Part shown: positions 1,974 to 64,000 of the stretch, in pieces
How positions within the stretch are numbered: position 1 is the stretch's first letter
Layout of the letters: every line of letters begins with the position of its first letter
Assembly: GCA_947172415.1 (NCBI GenBank)
Contig: OX359191.1
Span: 124,001-188,000, forward strand
Reading direction: 5' to 3'
From: Chondrosia reniformis
Lineage: Eukaryota > Porifera > Demospongiae > Chondrillida > Chondrillidae
Length of the DNA: 64,000 bases
The notes under the pieces: generated by a model
Seen by the model: only the letters and a program-made list of their open reading frames with translations
Databases searched by the model: none
Told to the model about the DNA's origin: nothing
Made by a program: the position numbers and the translations under genes

Positions 1974-4900
1974 ATGAAAGGAATAGCCTTTGTTGATCGT
2001 CTATTCTTCACTTTTAGCGGAAATCTGTTTCCAGGCGCTCTTGTGCTCGGAGATGTGGACAACGATAACGTTAGTGTACCACTTCAGTTGAACCAGTAAA
2101 TTGGGGGCCTTTGTTGTGCAATGTTTGTGTGCTATAGTAGCGCCCGGGGCCCAAACTGGACCCGGTGCCCGGTGCCCGGGGTCCAAACTGGACCAAACAT
2201 GGCTTCACTCTCCCTCTCATTGTTCAGGTGGTGGAGCTGATAGCGGGGAGCGTGACGGGACAGCTCTTTGTGTACAAGGGAAGTGCCAGAGGAGGGAGGC
2301 CGTGGAGACAGACATCTGGACTGGACACAGTGAGTGAGACGAGTAGTGGAACCATCTAGTTCTGTAGAAGTGATACAGCTTTTAGATATATCTTTTATGT
2401 ACTAACTATTACAATAATTGAACATGTATATATTTCAGTGCAGTCACAGATATTGCACCTTCTACAGGTAGTGGCACTAGTGTGTGGAGATGTGATGAAC
2501 ACAGGAAAGGTTGGTGGATGCTGGTTGACATGACAAGGAAGGCGTACTAGACTGACTGGAGAGGTGTGACTAGTCTTTCTTGTGTCTCTCGCTTTAGAAT
2601 ATCGTAGTTTGTGTGAATGTCAAAGGAAAGTGTTTCTTTATAGATTTCTCAGTCAACAAGGTAACCTCAATGTCCACTGTGTGTACGAACCTTCTCTCTT
2701 TAAGTTTGAGATTCCCATAATAGGCTGAGGGCAAGTCTGACAGTGAAGTAGAGCCATTCTACCATCAGGAGCTGCCATTGAACATCAACTCATTTTTACT
2801 AACAGAATTTAGTTAGTTTGAATCTTAATAAATAAAATGTAACTTGGGGGTGTGGCTAGGGGCGTGTCAGTTTGATCCTCCCTTCTCACATATGGTTGAC
2901 TCCATGTATCTCCACTCTCCCTGTGCAGTACCACAGAGAGGTCACTTTCTGGTTGCTGCTCAGACAGACAGAATATTTAGGATATTCAAATGGCAGTCTT
3001 CAGTGAGCCACTTTAGTATACACTGCTGAGGCACATTAAACTACCAAATCCCCCTCCCCTCCCCCCAGGGGGCCCCCACAGAAGGACATCTTGTGGAAGT
3101 GTTTCAAGAAAGACTCGATGGACAGGTTTGTTTGAAAGGTTTCAATGCTAATAATGTCAGTCTGTCTGCTGGTCCCACAGATCGGTTCTCTGTCAACCAT
3201 AAAATCACCAAATGACACAATTTCCCTCATTGTGTCCCAACCTGGAGGAACATTTGTCACTGTAAGTGCATCAGAGAGCGCAGACATGAAACAGGTCGAA
3301 GAAGCAAAGAGGTAATCCCTTTAATTAGACAAGCAGTGTGTATGTTACCATGGAAACCTCTTGTCCACCTTAGCAAGGAGGCAAATTTAGCATTTCGCTC
3401 ATCTCCCCCAAGGACTAAGCCCCTCCCCCACAGCTCCTTAACAACTGAAATTGTTGGGGGACTTGTCATTGATCAAGAGGATTACAAGGATGCTGAGGTG
3501 GTTGCCATGGCCACACTTGATGGTTAGTGGTATCCACCTATTTTATGATTGCACAATAAATTGCTAATGCTTTCTGTTATGATAGGAACTGTCTTACTAT
3601 TGCGCAATGGCGAGAAGGTTTGGGAATTAATTGTGAACCATAACCTGTTTGCCATAGGAAAGATGCGACTTGAAGTGAGCGCCATCTTGGACCAGATTAA
3701 TTAAGACTGTTTATATCGTTAATGTAAAATGATTGGAAAAATTTGTTAAAATTACAGGTTGAAAATATTTAAAATTGTCCTTAAAAAGGTAATCTTTGGG
3801 TTAAAAATTGTTTTTAGCTCTTTGTCTCTAACTTATTGCTAATTGCCAGTGTTTTCAGGAACAATGGAAAACAGTAAAATGTACACTTCCCGAGACACAT
3901 ACTGTAGTTGGCTGATTATCGTCACGAGATGGATGAATCGGTTGTCACAGCCCTCACTCTGAAATTCAATAAAACCCATTTTAAGTGCAATAGAATTGAT
4001 AATGTAGCTATCACTTGACATACCTGGATAGTGGTGCGCTCATGTTGGTCCTCAATGCAACCATATCCGGAGGCTAACAGCTACAAGGAGAAAGGAGTTA
4101 ATGTCACTGATTCATGTAACTCATTTTAGAAGTTTAAGGATTCTATTTAAAAGTAACCATTACCACAAAGTGTTCAATAAAAGTGCTCAGTGAAGTGGTC
4201 AGCGTTTGCTTACCATTCTCCTCATCATTACTGTTCCATTGAAGAGGTGTTCCTTAACCTCCACTAGTTTGGAGTAGAAGGAGGAGGAGAGATTGAGGCT
4301 TCTCTGCTCCTCCTCCAGCAGTGCCCTTCCGGTGTGGAGAGCAAACCTTGTAAGGTTGTGGTAGTACTCCACTAACTCTCTATTGATAGCGTCAAAGTCA
4401 ATATTTGAGCTCTGGGGGTAGAAAGGCACAAAAGTTGTTCAACAAACTGTCAACTCTACAATCCTTTACATTGTGGTAGTGCTAGTCGCCTAACTTTACA
4501 ATACAAGTTTTCTAATATCGTCTAACTCTACAAGTATTATCTGTTCTAAGTGGAAGGGTTTGGTACTCAAGTGCTTACCCCAGTTGATTTGGACTTTGGT
4601 GTTAATCCAGTGTCAATGAAGTTGCACTCGTTAGGGACCTGTGTTGGAGAGAGGGAAGCAGTTTAGTAAATCACACTGCATATAGCCATTTCCAATAACT
4701 ATGATATCTCAGTAGTCGATTTACTGCATCTGGTTCTGTAGACTTACTGTTGGAAAGACTTCCTTGGCTTCACTGTGAAGGTTCTGTGCCAGTCTATCGA
4801 CTGCATAGAAGTTGTGTCTCATTTCACTAAGTTCTGTTGAATCGATATTCTTCATCTCCTCTGGTTTGGAACAGGGAGGAGCTTCAACAGGATGGACAAA

Positions 4901-7841
4901 CGGACAGCTGGATACAATAGCTGATAGCGACACCACTCCGATCAGCACCAGCTGAGCCAGGTTGATTCCTACTAGTAATGCCATCGGTTCCTTTGATTCT
5001 AATAGCTTTTAATAATAACTGTATACTTCCAAATTCAGCAACTTTTCACTTGGACTGGTTTAGTTTGACATATCTACTGCTGGCTGCTGTTTTATATGGT
5101 TAGCTTTACCTGTACTGCATTCCCAATGGCTATTAGAACTAGCTTTTGCAAGAAGGGTTTTCCCCTATACAAATAGCTAGATAGCTTCATAGATATTTAT
5201 AGTAACAATTATTTTTTTCCATCTAGTTTGATGTACAATTGAGTAGGCCCTAAATCTGCAAGTCTAGTATTAATACATCACTTCTCAATTGTTCTACCAT
5301 CTCTGCCTATTCTCTATTTCCGGGTAAATCACTCTACCAAAATTCTTTTATCCATTCAATGACACCACAACTTAATTTCACAATGTGTAACAGTGAAACA
5401 TCTTCTGTCAATTAAATTAAAAGCTATTGCTTTGTAATGTGAAGCTGTATTATATTATATATTTAGGTGACTCCTATACAATATGGTGCGTGATTAAGAA
5501 GGAATGCTGTATAGTTATTCTAAAACCACCTTCCAACCATCTCCTTTGTAAATGAGGTTTTCACTTTACACTTTTTAAAACGTAAAATTATGACACAGAT
5601 ATATATTTTTGAATATGGAATATTTTGGTAATTTTATTAGCTATATTAATTATATATCCTCAAAAGTTGATCAAAGAGTGGCATATGATATAATGTATAT
5701 GGTAGCAAAAGTATTTGGAGTATCCATTTATCAATCTGACCCATTTCATAACTTTGAGTGACCCACGTATGTAATGTTTTGATATTCACTGTTATTAGTG
5801 CAACACTCTGAGATTGTATATCTTGTTGTAGCATGTGAATGTGACATTTCCAAACTGTTGCACCAAATGAGTAAAGTAAAACTTGGCAAAATATTTATAA
5901 TTTCCCACTTTGTTTGTTTTGTTTGGTATTTGCAAGTCAACAGGATGTACTGTTGTGCCATGGATGTGCCATCTGACCACTAATGTTAGTGTAAAGTGTT
6001 GCAATTTAATAGAATGCAGTTTGGCGGCTTCTCAGGGGAAATCCCCATTAGTCCCTGTAAAGAAACTATGTGGAGTATTGACTAGGGATAGGGGATAATT
6101 TTAATAGTCAGTTCCTTTAGCCCATGACATATACTGTAGATACAAATACTCTACTTGTAGTATATGTTGACTGGAACTACTTAACCTATATACATCAGCT
6201 AAATAGTTGAGATAATGGTCTTAATAGGAGAAACATAAAATTAGTGTATATACAAAGTTTCCTATATAAACCTTTTACTCTGAAGTAGCTGGTATACATG
6301 AAAAATCTAAGATACCATTTTCCTACATGCTATGCCTATTCTGTAAAAGAGCCTATAGGGGAACTAAACCTGAAGAGAGCTTTGGATGAAGATACAGGAG
6401 TCTTTTCTTCCTTCTTTTCCCTTCTTTCATCTTCTTCTCCACTGGGTCAGACAGCCGTTTCTGGGAATTCCACCCTTCATCAGTGATCCTGATACACAGC
6501 ATGTAAGAAAAATGGTATATGGAATATTCATGAATAATTATGTATATCATAGTGCAGTGTGTCTCTACAGTGTCAACATGTTTGCATAGTGAGAGGTCCT
6601 TCAGAACCCCAAACTGACATCTGCTGGTATATAAGAGACAATACCTCACTCACACTCAGTTGACAGGAGCTGAAGGTTGTTATGAGTGTAGCTCTCTCTC
6701 TCATCTGCAGTGTGCTGGTGGAGATGTGATAGTGGTGAGTGCCTGGGATGGGATCACATACATCATTGACCACACTCAGACTGTCGCCAGACACCACTTT
6801 CATGAAGACATTTGTGCCTTTACAGTCGGTGAGTTGCCACACACTGGAACAGTAGACCCATTTCGATTGCCCTAATTGTATATACACATTCCTAATATGA
6901 ATAATCATATTCCTAGGACAGGGTTGACATCATGTGAGGCAAAGTACTTTAAATAGACAATTTTCTACTGTAGAAATTTGGATGAGGATACAGTTTATAC
7001 TAATCTTCCTCCTCCCTTTTCCACTTGGCCAAGGGGTGTAGTAAGGTCTTAAGTGTGGTAATTTCTCAAGCTAAATAGGCGATTATATTATATTTTCATG
7101 GGAATATTTAAACTAGTAACACATAATTGCAGTACTGGTTGTTGGGCCTATAAATCAGATTGTCTCATATGATGATCCTTCAAGTTCTACTACTATAGTG
7201 GTGACGTTTAACAATAAAACAGTATCTGAACTTTAAATTTAGTTGCAATATCATTGAATGGATAAATGGATTTGATAAATTTCTGTATGCAATTTCTTTT
7301 TAGGTACATTTGGCTTGTCTGATGGTACAAACGTCCCCTGCTTAGTGTATGCTACGTTTAACAGGAAAATTCACCTCTTTTACAATGTCCAGATATCCTC
7401 TTTGAACACAGAGAATGCTTTAGACCTTCTCTCCAAGAAAAAGGTGAGATTGTGCAATGTTGAGGAAGAATTGCCCATCTTAAAATGCCGTTTGTATGAA
7501 TGATTCCATTTTATTATCAGTTCAATTATTTTCATGTCAGAATGCCTTGTTTGATTGATAGCTTAATCTCCTACAAAACCACTTAATCACTTCATATAAG
7601 GAAGCCATCTTTATCATATAATACTTATTTATGACAAGTGGTTTCAGTTCTAGTTTATGAAAATTTTGGGAGCCACAAGTGATGACATCATTGTAAACAC
7701 AAGCAACCACCAGGGATTTCCCCTTGCCACATTGTAGTTCGTATTCATTCCATTGTAGGAATTTGCAGAAGATTTTGAGTTTCAAAGCCAGTTTGGTAAA
7801 ATGGATGGTTAGTTCCAATTTACACCCACCACACACACACA

Positions 7842-13090: not shown

Positions 13091-14994
13091 ATGAGGAAAA
13101 CCACTTTACTACTCTTGTTCCTTTGCTCCACAATGATATCCTTGGGAGCCGGATTAAGAGGTGAAAGAGAAGAAACCACAGGACCTTTGAGGAGAGCAAG
13201 AGGTCCCAAGGGAGCTTCGGATCCGCCTGGTTCACATGGGAGGGACAGTCCCCAAGTGAAGGGCTCATGCGCTGTTTCTGCTCCAACTTACCCAGGCCGC
13301 AGCTGCGCCCTCAAGGACTGTCATCCACCTTTTGAGATACCACCCAAGTTAGAGACATCAGTATTAGTATATATATATATATGATTTCTCTAGAAAACAT
13401 GCACAGTGTGAATATATATATGCCATGACATAGCTATAAGTATTGTATAAATAGTGTACGAATAATCATTTTCCTACATGCTATGTGCCTGTTCTGTAAT
13501 GAATTAAAAAAAGCCTATAGCTACCTGGAGAGAACTTTGGATGAAGATACAGATGTCTTCTCTTTCTTCTTTTGCTCCACTGGGCCAGAGAGTTGTTTCT
13601 GGGAAAATGTGTATATGCATGTAAAATATGTAATGCTTATATAGACATGTGCATATTTAATTACTTGCATAGTGACTTTCATTTGAATTTGATGATATAT
13701 AGTACATACAGCTGTTTTTCAACATCTGAAGAAAACAGTGACTGCAGCACAGTTAAAGGAGCTGGATGGACTGCAATCTCATTTTTTGACAATGATGATG
13801 ATGATGACTTTTCTGTGGCTCCAATTGATCAACCTGGACACGGGGCTTTTGATTATTTTAATGATCTCCTTTGCAAGTGGCACTTTGATAGCACCAAATA
13901 CTACTATTACTTGTTCTTGTACAAGAAGGATTTCTACATGCATCATCAAGATTATAGTGCCTGCAGCTGTAACGATCATATACAAGTAGATTTCACCACC
14001 CCTGGCAGCCGATTTGGACATTCACAATATATTTGTGGTCATGAGACATATTATGACCCAGGAGATATTAATAAATCCTGCAAAGATGGAATCTCCACTT
14101 GCCTTCCCTATCATGTTGGTAAGTTTGCTATTTATAAATATATCGTCTAAATATATGCACACTACTATATGCACACTACTCAGAAATTCAGTTAAAACAC
14201 TTATGCATTATGTATTGTGGAGTGGAGTGCTTTGAAATTTTGAAATTAATTATCTATATTCCTTAATAGATGGAATTAATGTAACGTTTAGGAGCAACTC
14301 ATTTGGAAATGCAGCCGGATTTAAACTAATCGTAATGAGAATCAAAAATAATCACCAAGGTCAGCCTGGTCGGCCTGGCCAACCTGGTCAGCCTGGTCCA
14401 CCTGGCCAACCTGGTCAGCCTGGTCCACCTGTTCTTCCGGATCTACCACGAATTTCACCACCATCAACACTTCCAGGATGTAGACGCATTCCTTTTATCA
14501 CTCCACCCAGGGGTTCACCAGGTGAGAGGGGGCCACGCAGTATGAGGTCACAGAGAAGTAACCTTGGAGTGAAAGGCTCACGTGGTCCACCTGGTCTTCC
14601 TGGACCACCAGGTCCTCCTAGTAAAAGAAGCTTGTACTGCAGAGTTGGGAGCTACTGTAGTGGAACATGTGCTATATCAACATCAACAGCACCTCTTCCA
14701 GTAAGATCCAACCATCTTATAATTACAACTGAATACACAAACAGCCATTTTGCTATATATATACAAATTATGCGGCCTTAGAAAGGTATAATTAATTCAT
14801 TATTTTTGACAATGTCCTTCACTCCATGTAATAATATTTACCAGGTTAATCTGATGGATTTAAGAGCACAGGCAAGTGGAGACATTTTGGATGACATCAC
14901 TGGTGATCTTGCTTGGGGCTTTGTCAATTCACCTGACAATGTGTTGTCACGAATTGCTAGAGCAACTCTGAAGTTATTGAGAAAAATTGACTAA
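13091..14994 (+). CDS. secreted CUB-domain, collagen-repeat protein
   Basis: Four exons, 13091-13347, 13712-14118, 14270-14700 and 14845-14994, join in phase to give 414 residues. Residues 1-20 or so are a signal peptide (MRKTTLLLLFLCSTMISLGA). A basic, Gly/Pro-bearing stretch and a Cys-containing segment (SCAV...RSCALKDC) follow. Exons 2-3 encode a CUB-like domain: several Cys, an Asp run, CKWHFDSTKYYYYLFLYKKD, DHIQVDF, YICGHETYYDPGD and VTFRSNSFGNAAGFKLIV. Then come Gly-X-Y repeats in two blocks (GQPGRPGQPGQPGPPG and GSRGPPGLPGPPGPPS) and a short C-terminal domain with CRVGSYCSGTC. It probably acts in extracellular matrix or as a secreted recognition protein. The combination suggests a short collagen-like defence or matrix protein, but I cannot name an orthologue. 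The exon 1 donor at 13348 was chosen because it restores phase into exon 2. Confidence 0.8.
13465..13607 (+). mobile_element. dispersed repeat family A copy in CUB-collagen intron 1
   Basis: Related to the copy at 6298. It has TTTTCCTACATGCTATG, GCCTATAG, GAGAACTTTGGATGAAGATA and GCTCCACTGGGCCAGAGAG in the same order and orientation. Confidence 0.65.
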
Positions 14995-57192: not shown

Positions 57193-60076
57193 TCACTGCT
57201 GCTTGCATTCTGCAGGAGCCTGGCCTTGCTGAGGTTCATAGTCTGGATCTTCATCTTCTTCATACTCTTCGTCTTCATCTAAATATTCTTCTTCACTCTC
57301 AATCTTTGGAAAGACAGAGAATTTATCTAAACACATTCAGTGAAGAGAGAAGCTAACTACAAACTCACATCTACTACATCTCCAGTGAAATAGAGCACTG
57401 CTTTTGGAATAAAATTATCTCTCAAAAATTCACCTCTTGCAAAGTCAAGGCTTCTCTTCTCCTGGAGATCTGAATCTTCTTCTTCTTCTTCTTCCTTCAG
57501 CTCTGTAGATGTTGTGTTACCATGACAACAAGTACTTATGGTAGATATGATCAAATTTCAAATTACCTGGCAGACTGTCAAAAAAGTGAAAAAAAGAGTC
57601 TTGATCGACTGTTTTTGTTACTGTTCGAGTTTGGCCTTTACCTAACATCAGAGAACACCATCTTAGTAATGGCTGCATTAGAGCACCAGGCTCTTATATT
57701 AGTATTTATAGTGCCTATATTAGAGCATTGGGCTCTTACTATAACTATCAGTTTTACATTTTAGAAATGCTGCTCAATTTCTCAGAAAGTGCACACCTAC
57801 CTATACCTGCCTACGTACATATGTACGTACATGACCAATGTTACTACTAAGCAATGACATACTCTTATTTTTCTGTGTCTTCCTGACAGTCTTAACAGTA
57901 ACATTTTTGTCCTTTTTCCAGTTAATCTTTGCTCTACAGAATAACAATACAACATGCAACACATTTCTACACACTGTGCCATCCTTTACAGGTTGTGCAA
58001 TAACACCAGCTTGTTGCAAAACATACCCTACAGTTGCAATAAGTTCAGGTCCTTCAAAGGTAAAAGGATCTTCTTCATCAATCTCGCATTTACTTATGTA
58101 CTTCTTTACTATAACCTGCATGACAAGGGAGAGGTAAAGGTAATTGCTTCATTGAGCTGCATAATACACTATCTTGCCTTATCAGAAAAGTAATCATTTT
58201 CTTCAAAAATAAATTCCAATTGGAAATTGAGTCCATTTTCATCAGGATAGACCAATCTAATGTCAGTCAGCTTCTCCAAAATGGGTTCATCCCAGTCCTA
58301 TAACGTTTCCATGGTAACCAATAGTAAACATAAAGGGTCACAATATAAACAAACAAAAAGTACTTTTTACTTGGAAATTAATGTAAATACACAAACCATA
58401 TGTAAACACTTTTGCACTTCAGAAGTACTACAAATGGATAGTGAAATATAATGCCAGTTGCTGTCTCACTTTTATCAGTCCTTCCAGAAGCTGTACATTG
58501 CGCATAGCTGTCAACCAGAATCCAGGAATACCTTTGATGTCCTCGCCTTTCTCCTTTACAGATTTGGAGGTCTCCCCCTCTGTAGTGGAGCCTTCCTTGT
58601 CTGTTCCATTCTTGGCCTTGTCTTCCTCCTTATCTCCGCCCTGACCTTCCTCCTGGAGGGAGAATTGAAATAGGGACTAGTGAGACAAACAGTGTTTATA
58701 CTGTCAGACAGACATTTAAAAGGCTTACACTAATTAACGACAGACATAACATCTACAAACACATTAGGAATGAAAATCTTTCTATTTCAATACTCAACCA
58801 CGCCTGAAACTTTACTAACATCAAAAGCTAAAAGAGAAGTAATGAATCTCATTAGAAGATTACTTGTCTTTTTTGACTTTATTGGTAATATTAACAGCTC
58901 ATGTAAGCTACGTATATAGAGGCTTTCCGAAGGTCCTACATAAGTTTAGGAAAGTGGTGTTTACTACATTCAATTAGTATGTTTTCTCTTTTCTATATTT
59001 AGCTACATCTATAGGAAAATGATGCTTTAAATTACTCATGTACCATCAGTTTATTAATCTCAAGTCAAAACTTCAGATTACTACGTACGTACCTTTATGA
59101 CATCGAGCTCTTTCTCCTCTTCATCATCATCATCTCTGCTCCAAACACACTCTTCTTCAGTCGGCTCATATTCACCAGTAACGATGGTGCTTCTCTTGCT
59201 GTAGAGCTCTGTAAACTTGTCAACAAAGGTCCTCTGTAGCCTGCAGACCTCCAAATTAAACTCCACCTCTGCCTTCATTATATCGACCTGATTGTTCTTC
59301 AAGGCCTTGATTCTCTTTTGAATTGATTCAGGTAGACTTTCAATGTACCCTGAGGATTTGCCAACCATAGAATCCAACTGCTTCTACATGAAGATGAAAG
59401 AACACGACAAGAGAGACAATCAATGTCGATAACACTTCACAGAGCAATCAAAATATTAAAATTTTTCATTTTCACTACTCCATCGACTACTAATCAGTTG
59501 ACTTGTGCAAAGTACCTGCACGGCAGCCATAACTTGCGGATTGGTGGCCATTTGAGAAGCAATACTCTGAATGTCTGGTAAGGGAACACAACAAGACATT
59601 GATTAAAGTCTACAAACCTGTTACCATAGCAACACACAAGTTGTGGTACAATGCTGAATCACTTATTACTTAATGGAGCCTGTTGAGAGTCTGATGTTTC
59701 CGTAGACAGCTCGTTGCCATGGCTACCACCTCCCTTCTTGGGCGATTTCCTACACAGACATACAAGTTTAAACTTTATTCAAATTTATATTGAACTTTAA
59801 AAAAACATTGAACTGCAATTCATGTAACTGACTAACTACACGCGATATGTTCCAGAAAGATAGCACTCGATCAAAAGATAGCTTCTAAACATTGTATTAT
59901 AATGTCTAAGGCTTCCTTCTCAGAATCTGCTATTGACAGTGACACAGAAGTACTGTGAGGGGGCGTTATGGGGACTATTAAATCTACATTCTCATTCTCT
60001 TTAAATTAAAGATGAATTTAAATACAGATTGAACGAATTCCAAATAGACTATAACTGACCTCTTCTTTTCCGCCAT
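57193..60076 (-). CDS. NAP1L: nucleosome assembly protein 1-like histone chaperone
   Basis: Eleven exons on the minus strand: 60076-60060, 59749-59670, 59574-59516, 59383-59093, 58652-58470, 58297-58178, 58115-58027, 57933-57863, 57641-57567, 57502-57369 and 57303-57193. All phases agree, giving 409 residues (human NAP1L1 has 391). The NAP fold includes ESIQKRIKALKNNQVDIMKA, EYEPTEEECVW, GIPGFWLTAMRNVQLLEGLI, DPFTFEGPELIATVGAKINW and DNFIPKAVLYFTGDVVD. Acidic tracts flank it, and the protein ends PAECKQQ, a CaaX farnesylation box also present in vertebrate NAP1L1. It should bind H2A-H2B and shuttle between cytoplasm and nucleus. The intron after 58178 begins with GC (AAG|GCAAG), a GC-AG intron kept because both flanking exons match the family. 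It is convergent with EIF4G2 (306 bp between stops) and divergent from RPL39. Confidence 0.95.
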
Positions 60077-60254
60077 TCGGACACGTGTTCGACGACTGAT
60101 TCCCGCCAGAGTGTCGTAACGAAAAGGACACGCAAACTTTTTCTTTGCGTTTGCTCCATTCTTTCAAATTTGTAAATTTGGTTTTGGTTTGGAATTGTGA
60201 CTAAGGATTTCAAGCCCGCGTTGTAGAAGTTCTCCATTGAAATCGTCGCTAGTC
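60077..60254. promoter_or_regulatory. bidirectional promoter of NAP1L (-) and RPL39 (+)
   Basis: Only 178 bp separate the two start codons, so both transcription starts must lie within or close to this interval. It is CpG-containing (CGGACACGTGTTCG near 60078 includes a CACGTG core) and has pyrimidine tracts suited to a ribosomal-protein transcription start. The assignment follows from the geometry. Confidence 0.6.
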
Positions 60255-60699
60255 ATGGTAAGGAAGCGTAAAGTGGAGCAAGTAAATACGTGATAGTTTC
60301 AACTAATCGTTTTATTGTGTTTCTCTTTGTGTAGCCTGCACACAAGAGGTTGTTTATAAAGAAAAAGTTGGCAAAAAAGATGCGTCAAAACCGACCAGTT
60401 CCTCATTGGATTAGAATGAGGACGGGGAACACGATAAAGTAAGCTTGTGCTAATTTGTGCCTTTCGTAATGGCATTTCATTTCTTTGTTGGGATTTTAAT
60501 GTTCATCACATCAACATCACAATGTGATTTGCCACAAATAATTATTGAATGTAGTTTGATCGGATAGTCCAATGTCTAATGTAGGTCTTGTTAGCATGTA
60601 ATGGTTTATTTCTCGCGAGTGTTGTATCTAGGTGGTTGTCATTCTTGTAGATACAATGCGAAGAGAAGACACTGGAGGAGAACAAAATTAGGATTTTAA
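60255..60699 (+). CDS. RPL39: 60S ribosomal protein L39 (eL39)
   Basis: Three exons: 60255-60257 (the ATG alone), 60335-60438 and 60651-60699. They give 51 residues, the normal eL39 length. The sequence reads [20 protein letters not shown], then [30 protein letters not shown]; the RHWRRTKLG end is diagnostic. eL39 lines the ribosome exit tunnel in the large subunit. An intron directly after the start codon is, as I recall, also found in vertebrate RPL39, so the position is probably ancestral. It shares a promoter region with NAP1L. Individual exons are too short to stand out as open frames, so the gene is easily missed. Confidence 0.96.
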
Positions 60700-60824
60700 T
60701 TGTGAAATGTATAACTTTGTTGTTAAAACAATTAAACAATTGTTAATCATTCGATTCATGTGTGTCGTTGCAGTAAAACGTTGTCGATTATAAACACGGT
60801 CTAAATTTTACTACATACTACATC

Positions 60825-60905
60825 CATTCTACTGTAGAAGGTCTATAGGGAACTTGATCTAGTGATAGTACTGGACGAGGATCGATACAAGAGTCTTCTT
60901 TTTTA
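60825..60905 (+). mobile_element. dispersed repeat family A, degraded copy
   Basis: AAGGTCTATAGGGAACTTGA and GATCGATACAAGAGTCTTC correspond to the middle of the family, with several substitutions. Confidence 0.5.
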
Positions 60906-61078
60906 TTCTGCTTCGATGGTCATGTTTTAAATTGTGAAAATGTTCTTTGGAGATGGAACATTTGGTGTAGAATGTGTACCAGTTATATAATGTGATCAGC
61001 TGATTGGATACAGTGGAATTATGCATTGCTTGCAATTTGTAAAATTTCTGAAACACAGACTATATCAGCAGATCAATT

Positions 61079-63979
61079 TTAGAGTTCATCGTGAGCTTTT
61101 CTGTAGTTCTCTTCAGCATCTTCATCAATATGACTGAGAAACAGTTGGAAACTCTGCATCACCTCATCATGAGTAAGATTATCATCCTACATATGTAGAG
61201 GGAGAATATCATCCTACATATGTAGAGGGAGAATATCATCCTATATATGTAGAGGGAGAATATCATCCATCAAAAGTTAATCATCGTCTAATCTAGTACA
61301 GAATCGTTGTATTAGTGACCTTGTTAGAATCAGCATGCTCATAGAGTCTCTTAGCTTCTTCAGCTGCCTCCTTTGACCTTCGAGGAGAGAGCAACTGCTC
61401 AATCTCTTCCTGGAGACATGGCAGATTGGGAAGGTGAGAGATGGGTGAGAGGTAGGTGTGAGGGTGAGAGATGGGTGAGAGGTAGGTGAGAGATGGGTGA
61501 GAGATGGGTGAGAGATGGTAGGTGAGAGGTGGGTGAGAGGTAGGTGAGAGGTAGGTGAGAGGTAGGTGAGAGGTGGGTGAGAGGTAGGTGAGAGATGGTA
61601 GGTGAGAGGTAGGTGAGAGATGGGTGAGAGATGGTAGGTGAGAGGTGGGTGAGAGGTAGGTGAGAGGTAGGTGAGAGGTGGGTAAGAGGTAGGTGAGAGA
61701 TGGTAGGTGAGAGGTAGGTGAGAGGTGGGTGAGAGGTAGGTGAGAGATGGTAGGTGAGAGGTAGGTGAGAGATGGGTGAGAGATGGGTGAGAGGTAGGTG
61801 AGAGATAGGTGAGAGGTAGGTGAGAGATGGGTGAGAGGTAGGTGAGAGGTAGGTGAGAGATGGGCGAGAGGGTGAGAGGTAGGTGAGAGATGGGTGAGAG
61901 GTAGGTGAGAGATGGGTGAGAGGTAGGTGAGAGATGGGTGAGAGGTAGGTGAGAGGTAGGTGAGAGATGGGTGAGAGGTAGGTGAGAGATGGGTGAGAGG
62001 TAGGTGAGAGGGTGAGAGATGGGTGAGAGGTAGGTGAGAGATGGGTGAGAGGTAGGTGAGAGATGGGTGAGAGATGGGTGAGAGGTAGGTGAGAGATGGG
62101 TGAGAGATGGGTGAGAGGTAGGTGAGAGATGGGTGAGAGGTAGGTGAGAGATGGGTGAGAGATGGGTGAGAGGTAGGTGAGAGGTAGGTGAGAGATGGGT
62201 GAGAGATGGGTGAGAGGTAGGTGAGAGATGGGTGAGAGGTAGGTGAGAGATGGGTGAGAGATGGGTGAGAGGTAGGTGAGAGATGGGTGAGAGGGTGAGA
62301 GGTAGGTGAGAGGTAGGTGAGAGGTGGGTGAGAGGTGGGTGAGAGGTAGGTGAGAGGTAGGTGAGAGGTAGGTGAGAGATGGGTGAGAGGTAGGTGAGAG
62401 ATGGGTGAGAGGTAGGTGAGAGGTGGGTGAGAGATGGGTGAGAGGTGGGTGAGAGGTAGGTGAGAGGTGGGTGAGAGGTGGGTGAGAGGTAGGTGAGAGA
62501 TGGGTGAGAGGTGGGTGAGAGGGTGAGAGATGGGTTAGAGGGTGAGAGGGTGAGAGATGGGTGAGAGATGGGTGAGAGGTAGGTGAGAGGTGGGTGAGAG
62601 GTAGGTGAGAGGTAGGTGAGAGATGGGTGAGAGATGGGTGAGAGGTAGGTGAGAGATGGGTGAGAGATGGGTGAGAGGTAGGTGAGAGATGGGTGAGAGG
62701 TAGGTGAGAGGTGGGTGAGAGGTAGGTGAGAGATGGGTGAGAGGTGGGTGAGAGGTAGGTGAGAGATGGGTGAGAGGTGGGTGAGAGATGGGTGAGAGAT
62801 GGGTGAGAGGTGGGTGAGAGATGGGTGAGAGATGGGTGAGAGGTAGGTGAGAGGTGGGTGAGAGGTAGGTGAGAGATGGGTGAGAGGTAGGTGAGAGATG
62901 GGTGAGAGGGTGCGAGATGGGTGAGAGGTAGGTGAGAGATGGGTGAGAGGTAGGTGAGAGATGGGTGAGAGGGTGCGAGATGGGTGAGAGATGGGTTAGA
63001 GGGTGAGAGATGGGTGCGAGATGGGTGAGAGGTGTGTGAGAGGGTGAGAGGGTGAGAGATGGGTGAGAGGGTGCGAGATGGGTGAGAGGTGTGTGAGAGG
63101 GTGAGAGATGGGTGCGAGATGGGTGAGAGGTGTGTGAGAGGGTGAGAGGTGTGTGAGAGGGTGAGAGATGGGTGCGAGATGGGTGAGAGGGTGAGAGATG
63201 GGTGAGAGGTGTGTGAGAGGGTGAGAGATGGGTGAGAGATGGGTGAGAGGTGTGTGAGAGGGTGAGAGATGGGTGAGAGATGGGTGAGAGGTGTGTGAGA
63301 GGGTGAGAGATGGGTGAGAGAGGGTGAGAGATGGGTGAGAGGTGTGTGAGAGGGTGAGAGATGGGTGAGAGAGGGTGAGAGATGGGTGAGAGATGGGTGA
63401 GAGGGTGAGAGATGGGTGAGAGGTAGGTGAGAGATGGGTGAAAGATGGGTGAGAGGGTGAGAGATGGGTGAGAGGGTGAGAGGGTGAGAGGTGTGTGAGA
63501 GATGGGTGAGAGATGGGTGTGTGGGCAGACACACAAATATAAGTTTATACCTTGTCAAACATTTGGTCATTATTTGTGTCATATTCTTTTTGAAAGCTCA
63601 AGAAATCCTCATTTGAAGTGTCACTGTCATCTTCACTAGTGGTAGTAAACAAATCGCGAAACACATTTCTATACTCTTCCATTGACACCAGACCATCCAA
63701 ATCTTTATCTAATTCATCTAGAAATTCCTGTAAAACAGTTAACAAATCAAAACTCATTCTAGTTTTCAGAACCTTTCCCACAAGAGGCAGCTCCACTGAC
63801 CTGGACAGTGTGATCCACCATGTGGTCGTGGTGACGAGGGAAGAGCATGGTCTTAAGTTCCTCTACGTTCAGCCCCCCACTCTCATCCTGGTCTGCAACC
63901 TTGAACCGACTATACTCCATTGAGGTTACTGAGTCAATATTTTCCCCATCCTTCATGTCTTCCTCACTAAAGCCACTCT
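61079..63979 (-). CDS. reticulocalbin/calumenin (CREC) family ER Ca2+-binding protein, 3' exons
   Basis: Four exons on the minus strand, 63979-63801, 63727-63551, 61409-61320 and 61186-61079, join in phase; the 5' end lies beyond the window. EF-hand loops are visible: DQDESGGLNVEE, DKDLDGLVSMEE, DTNNDQMFDKEE and DSNKDDNLTHDE. The protein ends RKAHDEL, so HDEL is the ER-retention signal expected of reticulocalbins and calumenins, which act in the secretory pathway lumen. The 2.1-kb intron between 63551 and 61409 is almost entirely minisatellite, while the last intron carries repeats of its own acceptor junction. The Cab45 and reticulocalbin branches cannot be told apart from this part alone. 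It is convergent with RPL39, 379 bp apart. Confidence 0.9.
61181..61268. repeat. 27-bp minisatellite copying the acceptor of the last CREC exon
   Basis: Three to four units of ATCATCCTACATATGTAGAG plus GGAGAAT. On the minus strand each unit ends in ATATGTAG|GATGAT, the acceptor and first codons of the last exon, so several equivalent acceptor sites stand in tandem. Confidence 0.9.
61437..63530. repeat. ~2.1-kb GGTGAGAGATGGGTGAGAGGTA minisatellite in CREC intron
   Basis: Units of 11 and 22 bp based on GGTGAGAGATG and GGTGAGAGGTA, with GTGTGTGAGAGG variants on the distal side. There is no stop on the minus strand for over 700 codons, so it mimics a large Ser/His/Pro/Leu/Thr protein, but it lies between two phase-compatible exons of the CREC gene. 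Every unit contains GGTGAGAG, a splice-donor-like word on the plus strand. Confidence 0.95.
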
Positions 63980-64000
63980 CTGAGGAGACAAGCCAGTAGA

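Follow-up and report, generated by a model that had tools for sequence, protein, structure and literature searches.

A window of 64,000 nucleotides from the sponge Chondrosia reniformis (GenBank assembly GCA_947172415.1, contig OX359191.1, positions 124,001 to 188,000 of the forward strand; coordinates given below without a contig name are those of this window) carries on its minus strand a five-exon gene, running from 4984 to 3839, that belongs to a real, conserved and apparently new family of helical proteins with signal-like N-termini. An intronless relative lies elsewhere in the genome, and it is proposed, tentatively and with slightly less than even confidence, that the two are ligands working like long-chain helical cytokines. 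The observations behind this proposal are the structure of the gene as read from the DNA, a second copy that is conserved, four conserved cysteines, a register between exons and helices (given the better of two structural models), a TATA box common to both genes and several STAT-like loci clustered in the genome. If expressed, both genes would encode secreted, disulfide-braced four-helix proteins of up-up-down-down topology acting as extracellular ligands; the released proteins would bind and bridge receptor chains on neighbouring cells, and this bridging would drive a kinase-STAT response.

The features of the window gene, as read from the DNA, are these:

5090..5096, minus strand: TATAAAA box, 112 nt upstream of the ATG
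4748..4984, minus strand: exon 1, 237 nt; hydrophobic signal-like N-terminus, Cys27, Cys38 and predicted helix A (residues 49-79)
4871..4873, minus strand: codon of Cys38, before helix A, conserved
4579..4638, minus strand: exon 2, 60 nt; AB loop with PNEC (Cys84) and GLTP, both kept in the relative
4624..4626, minus strand: codon of Cys84, AB loop, conserved
4214..4411, minus strand: exon 3, 198 nt; predicted helix B (residues 103-138) and most of predicted helix C (residues 142-168)
4024..4080, minus strand: exon 4, 57 nt; CD loop containing Cys173 (GCIEDQHE), preceded by the end of helix C
4057..4059, minus strand: codon of Cys173, directly after helix C, conserved
3839..3958, minus strand: exon 5, 120 nt including the stop codon; Cys188 and predicted helix D (residues 190-222)
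3947..3949, minus strand: codon of Cys188, start of helix D, conserved

All four introns start with GT and end with AG, and all are in phase 0, since every exon length is divisible by 3. The product has 223 residues, with cysteines at 27, 38, 84, 173 and 188 and sequons at N118, N139 and N157, all three of which lie in exon 3 together with the conserved blocks NLTRFAL, EEQ and FYS. An earlier reading made from the letters of this DNA (the sequence-only reading) had described five exons with clean splice sites, phase-0 introns, 223 residues and three N-glycosylation sequons, and these features are confirmed from the DNA, the exon joins being a sequence-based prediction; its coordinates were also right, but it gave no strand. 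Where it named a signal peptide, a hydrophobic, signal-like N-terminal segment is seen by eye in both sponge proteins, which would be candidates for secretion.

The relative was found by searching the C. reniformis genome (117,379,552 bases in 15 contigs; the assembly odChoReni1.1 is described in PMC12181767 as 117.37 Mb in 14 chromosomes and a mitochondrion). It lies at C1:1128430-1129020, with 31% identity to residues 21-213 of the spliced window protein (E 9.4e-27), and by BLASTP the two proteins share 70 of 221 positions (32%, 107 bits). The sole other genome match, on contig C11 at E 4.9, was taken as chance. By these genome searches, which proceed one exon at a time and may overlook divergent copies, the family has two members. 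The relative is a single uninterrupted open frame of 233 residues with a hydrophobic N-terminus and without introns. The blocks PNEC, GLTP, NLTRFAL, EEQ, FYS, CI.D.HE and LVT are common to both proteins. A TATAAAA box stands upstream of the ATG in both genes, at -112 in the window gene and at -111 in the relative, the frequency of this motif in the window (0.0164 per 100 nt) giving an expectation of about 0.03 per 200-nt upstream region. On the 3' side of the relative AATAAA occurs 73 and 91 nt after the stop, and there is no run of more than 7 A in 500 nt. That the intronless copy has kept its promoter suggests that it is no ordinary retrocopy, and that either the relative lost its introns by recombining with cDNA or the window gene gained them.

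A profile built from the two sequences found one match in 5.77 billion proteins (5458 candidates scored), here called P0001, and the core of the relative used as query returned it again as the sole match among 7 candidates. P0001 is a near-identical fragment in a public contig (138 residues, 98% identical to the relative, 51% coverage), and it is probably a Chondrosia contig, because its last residues resemble a translated sequencing adapter. That it was the sole match does not establish the family as confined to Chondrosia, the sponge share of the database not being given, and the protein-database searches rely on shared five-residue words or strong similarity, so that distant relatives can escape them. 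These matches bear on the suggestion that the gene is an artefact of prediction, a set of open stretches joined through chance splice sites. The exon joins of the window gene are predicted from the DNA and neither AATAAA nor ATTAAA occurs within 500 nt after its stop, as an artefact would allow, but the second locus carries the related protein as one uninterrupted frame, which already contradicts it, and P0001 speaks for the second protein in turn. Judged by sequence, the window gene is not a chance reading frame, because its spliced protein aligns with a second locus of the same genome, and an artefact is very improbable.

Two AlphaFold2 models were obtained. The better of them, model 1 (pLDDT 49.9, pTM 0.43), has cytokine topology, with four long helices joined by long AB, short BC and long CD links, and the 50 matches listed for it by Foldseek are only helical cytokines or related hormones. 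When its helices are mapped through the pairwise alignment they fall at residues 49-79, 103-138, 142-168 and 190-222 of the window protein, whose introns lie after residues 79, 99, 165 and 184. Given model 1, exon 1 thus corresponds to helix A, exon 2 to the AB loop, exon 3 to helices B and C, exon 4 to the CD loop and exon 5 to helix D, the border of exon 3 falling three residues inside the end of helix C. Random placement of four introns gave the same order in 0.4% of draws (a post hoc figure with a three-residue tolerance) and 3.4% when placements were scored by how deep the introns lay inside helices in sum. Introns of phase 0 that separate helix A, the loop, helices B+C and helix D are reported as conserved among four-helix cytokines (PMC12327624, citing Betts 2001), and the window gene, with the helices of model 1, shows this class I arrangement with one extra intron at the CD loop. 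The genes of interleukin-4, a short-chain helical cytokine, share the arrangement (PMC12327624), with three introns as against four in the window gene. Hydrophobic moments were significant (p <0.05) for helix A in the window protein only, for helix B in both proteins and for helix C in the relative only.

A further point of likeness is the placing of the cysteines. The relative retains Cys38, 84, 173 and 188, which occupy the same kinds of place as in LIF and OSM, long-chain class I cytokines of the IL-6 family (before helix A, in the AB link, after helix C and where helix D begins), and the chain length is similar. The sequence-only reading had compared all five cysteines with LIF in this way, which holds for these four but not for Cys27, which has no counterpart in the relative and is near the likely signal peptide. 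LIF has cysteines at 12, 18, 60, 131, 134 and 163, of which 60 pairs with 163. In the sponge proteins the predicted pairing is 38-173 and 84-188. The disulfides of OSM are Cys6-Cys127 and Cys49-Cys167 (PMC8355150), and in both LIF and OSM the N-terminus is reported as tethered to helix C, a disulfide tether that CNTF itself lacks according to the same source (PMC10022904); in an alignment with CNTF the identity is 11%. That paper also describes the site 3 receptor motif of LIF and CNTF, Phe and Lys three apart (FxxK) near the N-terminus of helix D (F152/K155 in CNTF, F178/K181 in LIF), which is absent either side of Cys188 in both the window protein (QHERTTIQSEGCDNRFIHLVTII) and the relative (EHENVNVLATQIPPECNPRLFDLVTVTG). 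Unlike LIF and OSM, the window gene gives the CD loop an exon of its own.

The sequence-only reading had also held that helices B and C match LIF beyond composition. LIF, CNTF and IL-6 were aligned locally and globally with both sponge proteins, and each pair was tested against two sets of 300 shuffles, one of full shuffles and the other preserving local composition in 12-residue blocks. Against LIF the window protein gave a local z of 2.4 with full shuffles (7 of 300 as high) and 1.6 with block shuffles (26 of 300), and the relative gave -0.7 and -0.6. The LIF match is therefore not borne out, and LIF sequence homology as then stated is rejected, the scores being neither clearly above composition nor shared by the relative; it was LIF that was compared, not OSM. 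The global z for the window protein with CNTF was 3.4 with full and 2.1 with local-composition shuffles, as against -0.9 for the relative, and the relative scored 3.0 and 2.9 with IL-6, as against a global 0.3 for the window protein, so that in these top-scoring pairs neither cytokine scores alike with the other sponge protein. Pfam-A includes LIF_OSM, IL6, CNTF and unpaired models, and hmmscan of both proteins returned no cytokine family up to E 10, although the HMMER filters discard most matches above about E 0.1; a match to a Pfam cytokine family is not supported. The Drosophila Unpaired (Upd) proteins, ligands of Domeless, are likewise non-vertebrate JAK-STAT ligands, and the sponge proteins have no Pfam match to them, a comparison made by Pfam profiles only and not with Upd sequences; Upd is reported from insects (PMC13203501). 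The proteins should not be assigned to the LIF/IL-6 family, because searches for the family's profile and for FxxK both came out negative. Chondrosin, another secreted protein of the same sponge, does not fit by its reported length of 199 residues, its signal peptide of 21 residues cleaved at AEA|SK and its model, which resembles a ryanodine receptor (PMC7459819), and was set apart by this published description rather than by full-sequence comparison.

Several results, with the exon joins and missing poly(A) signal noted above and those on the receptor side given below, weigh against the proposal that these are cytokine-like ligands. The confidence of model 1 is low and none of its Foldseek matches reached E 0.001; model 2 (pLDDT 46.5, pTM 0.31) fuses helices B and C, its fused helix 72-135 being the same stretch as B and C, and the 50 matches listed for it include no cytokine and thus not CNTF, so that the topology expected by the sequence-only reading is compatible with one model but not with the other, both of low confidence. 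Amphipathic moments fell short of significance for helix A in the relative, for helix C in the window protein and for helix D in either protein, and when the two proteins are compared conservation follows no significant helical period in any helix (p 0.30, 0.41, 0.30 and 0.18). Since the relative is intronless, the intron pattern may not be ancestral. No match at E 10 was found for the window protein among 294 word-sharing candidates, and to the Pfam result can be added the lack of any relative in NCBIfam or among PDB sequences, where E was 0.23 at best and the profile gave an rRNA-processing protein at 0.2. A Pfam match, SPMIP8 at E 0.061, was under its cut-off, viral contigs gave 16 pattern matches with 0 confirmed, and phage records held no relative. 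A rival reading is a sponge-specific secreted helical protein with a role in matrix, defence or lipid binding and some other bundle fold; the resemblance to cytokines in one low-confidence model and in the exon layout would then be coincidence. In its favour, the models are of low confidence and discordant, the protein has no sequence family, the scores against LIF, CNTF and IL-6 (z no higher than 3.4) are inconsistent between the two proteins, the relative has no introns and no receptor was found. Such a protein is a credible explanation, if on balance a doubtful one, for it leaves unaccounted the cytokine and hormone matches and the cytokine-like link lengths of the higher-confidence model, and intron phases and cysteine positions are independent of the fold search. 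Of the undescribed helical cytokine originally suggested, there remain the helical family, signal-like N-terminus, model 1 topology, exon borders that follow the helix plan and LIF/OSM-like cysteines; the LIF match, a Pfam cytokine family, the FxxK motif and a class I receptor (looked for with limited means) are not supported.

The same reading had called for class I receptors and JAK/STAT in this genome, of which STAT-like loci alone were identified; class I helical cytokines act through JAK-STAT on receptors of the FN3/WSXWS kind. STAT_bind gave 14 exon matches, forming seven pairs at seven places (C2:2.83-3.54 Mb). These seven loci, on both strands within 0.72 Mb (C2:2828186-3543426), look like a local STAT gene expansion. 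Neither a class I receptor (profile and motif searches of the genome, with limited means) nor JAK (profile and kinase searches) was identified, and their absence is not established because profile searches that take one exon at a time have little power for genes of this sort. EpoR_lig-bind had no match in the genome. The single matches to IL6Ra-bind (E 0.15, about 4 kb from kinase-like frames seen by eye) and FERM_F2 (E 0.51, about 0.4 kb from a reverse-transcriptase-like frame seen by eye) were under their cut-offs and, given also these neighbours, were taken as chance; that to Jak1_Phl (E 0.28) was likewise under its cut-off. Two of 110 Tissue_fac matches exceeded the cut-off, both in one FN3-rich cluster. 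In the stretch scanned, this cluster of FN3-like domains (C7:7293911-7296487) lacks a WSXWS-like motif preceded by 35 open codons, and none of the 17 scanned loci has such a motif with 35 or more open codons ahead of it. The GxWSxWS pattern is not in excess (473 occurrences as against 617 for the backward control), and several of its places among the matches listed resemble thrombospondin repeats. With the kinase domain of human JAK2 as query, and 135 of 590 candidates scored, at least 18 kinase domains had E values of 1e-20 or lower; two of them were inspected and have a membrane-like segment upstream, judged by eye. A tight group of five tyrosine kinase domains, each in a single frame and with 39-41% identity to that query, lies at C9:6665448-6700101.

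Another rival reading is true homology with class I (gp130-type) helical cytokines, by descent from a cytokine gene that predated the split of sponges from other animals. The exon plan and phase, the LIF/OSM-like placing of the cysteines, the model 1 matches and the STAT-like loci agree with it. The lack of sequence similarity that is both significant and consistent, the missing FxxK near the start of helix D and the failure to find a class I receptor do not, and in published accounts CRLF3 is reported absent from Porifera (PMC6797617), IL6R is traced no further back than Mollusca and IL6 is confined to vertebrates (PMC13203501). Such homology is unlikely, and so it is improbable that the sponge encodes true long-chain helical cytokines; were it so, the ligand side of cytokine-STAT signalling would be placed at the animal root, before the known receptors and long before the vertebrate IL-6 type ligands. 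JAK and STAT are reported from sponges, and the survey text concerned reports no IL-6 type ligand from them (PMC13203501); in the open-licence literature no report of a sponge helical cytokine was recognisable by title or abstract opening, partly among the matches listed. A conserved, secreted-looking, cytokine-like sponge family is a concrete ligand candidate for this pathway, and the age of helical-cytokine signalling therefore becomes directly testable.

The rest of the window yielded some further observations. The neighbouring stretch 3036-3527 has two open frames with no Pfam family over cut-off. At 13091-14781 on the plus strand a signal-peptide-like start (13091) is followed further on by collagen-like PGQPGPPGQ repeats in open frames, possibly a single secreted collagen-like gene. 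Towards the end of the window a G-rich tandem array of about 195 copies of an 11-base unit, GGTGAGAGATG, occupies 61433-63519, in a region where the GC skew is 0.62 (60001-64000).
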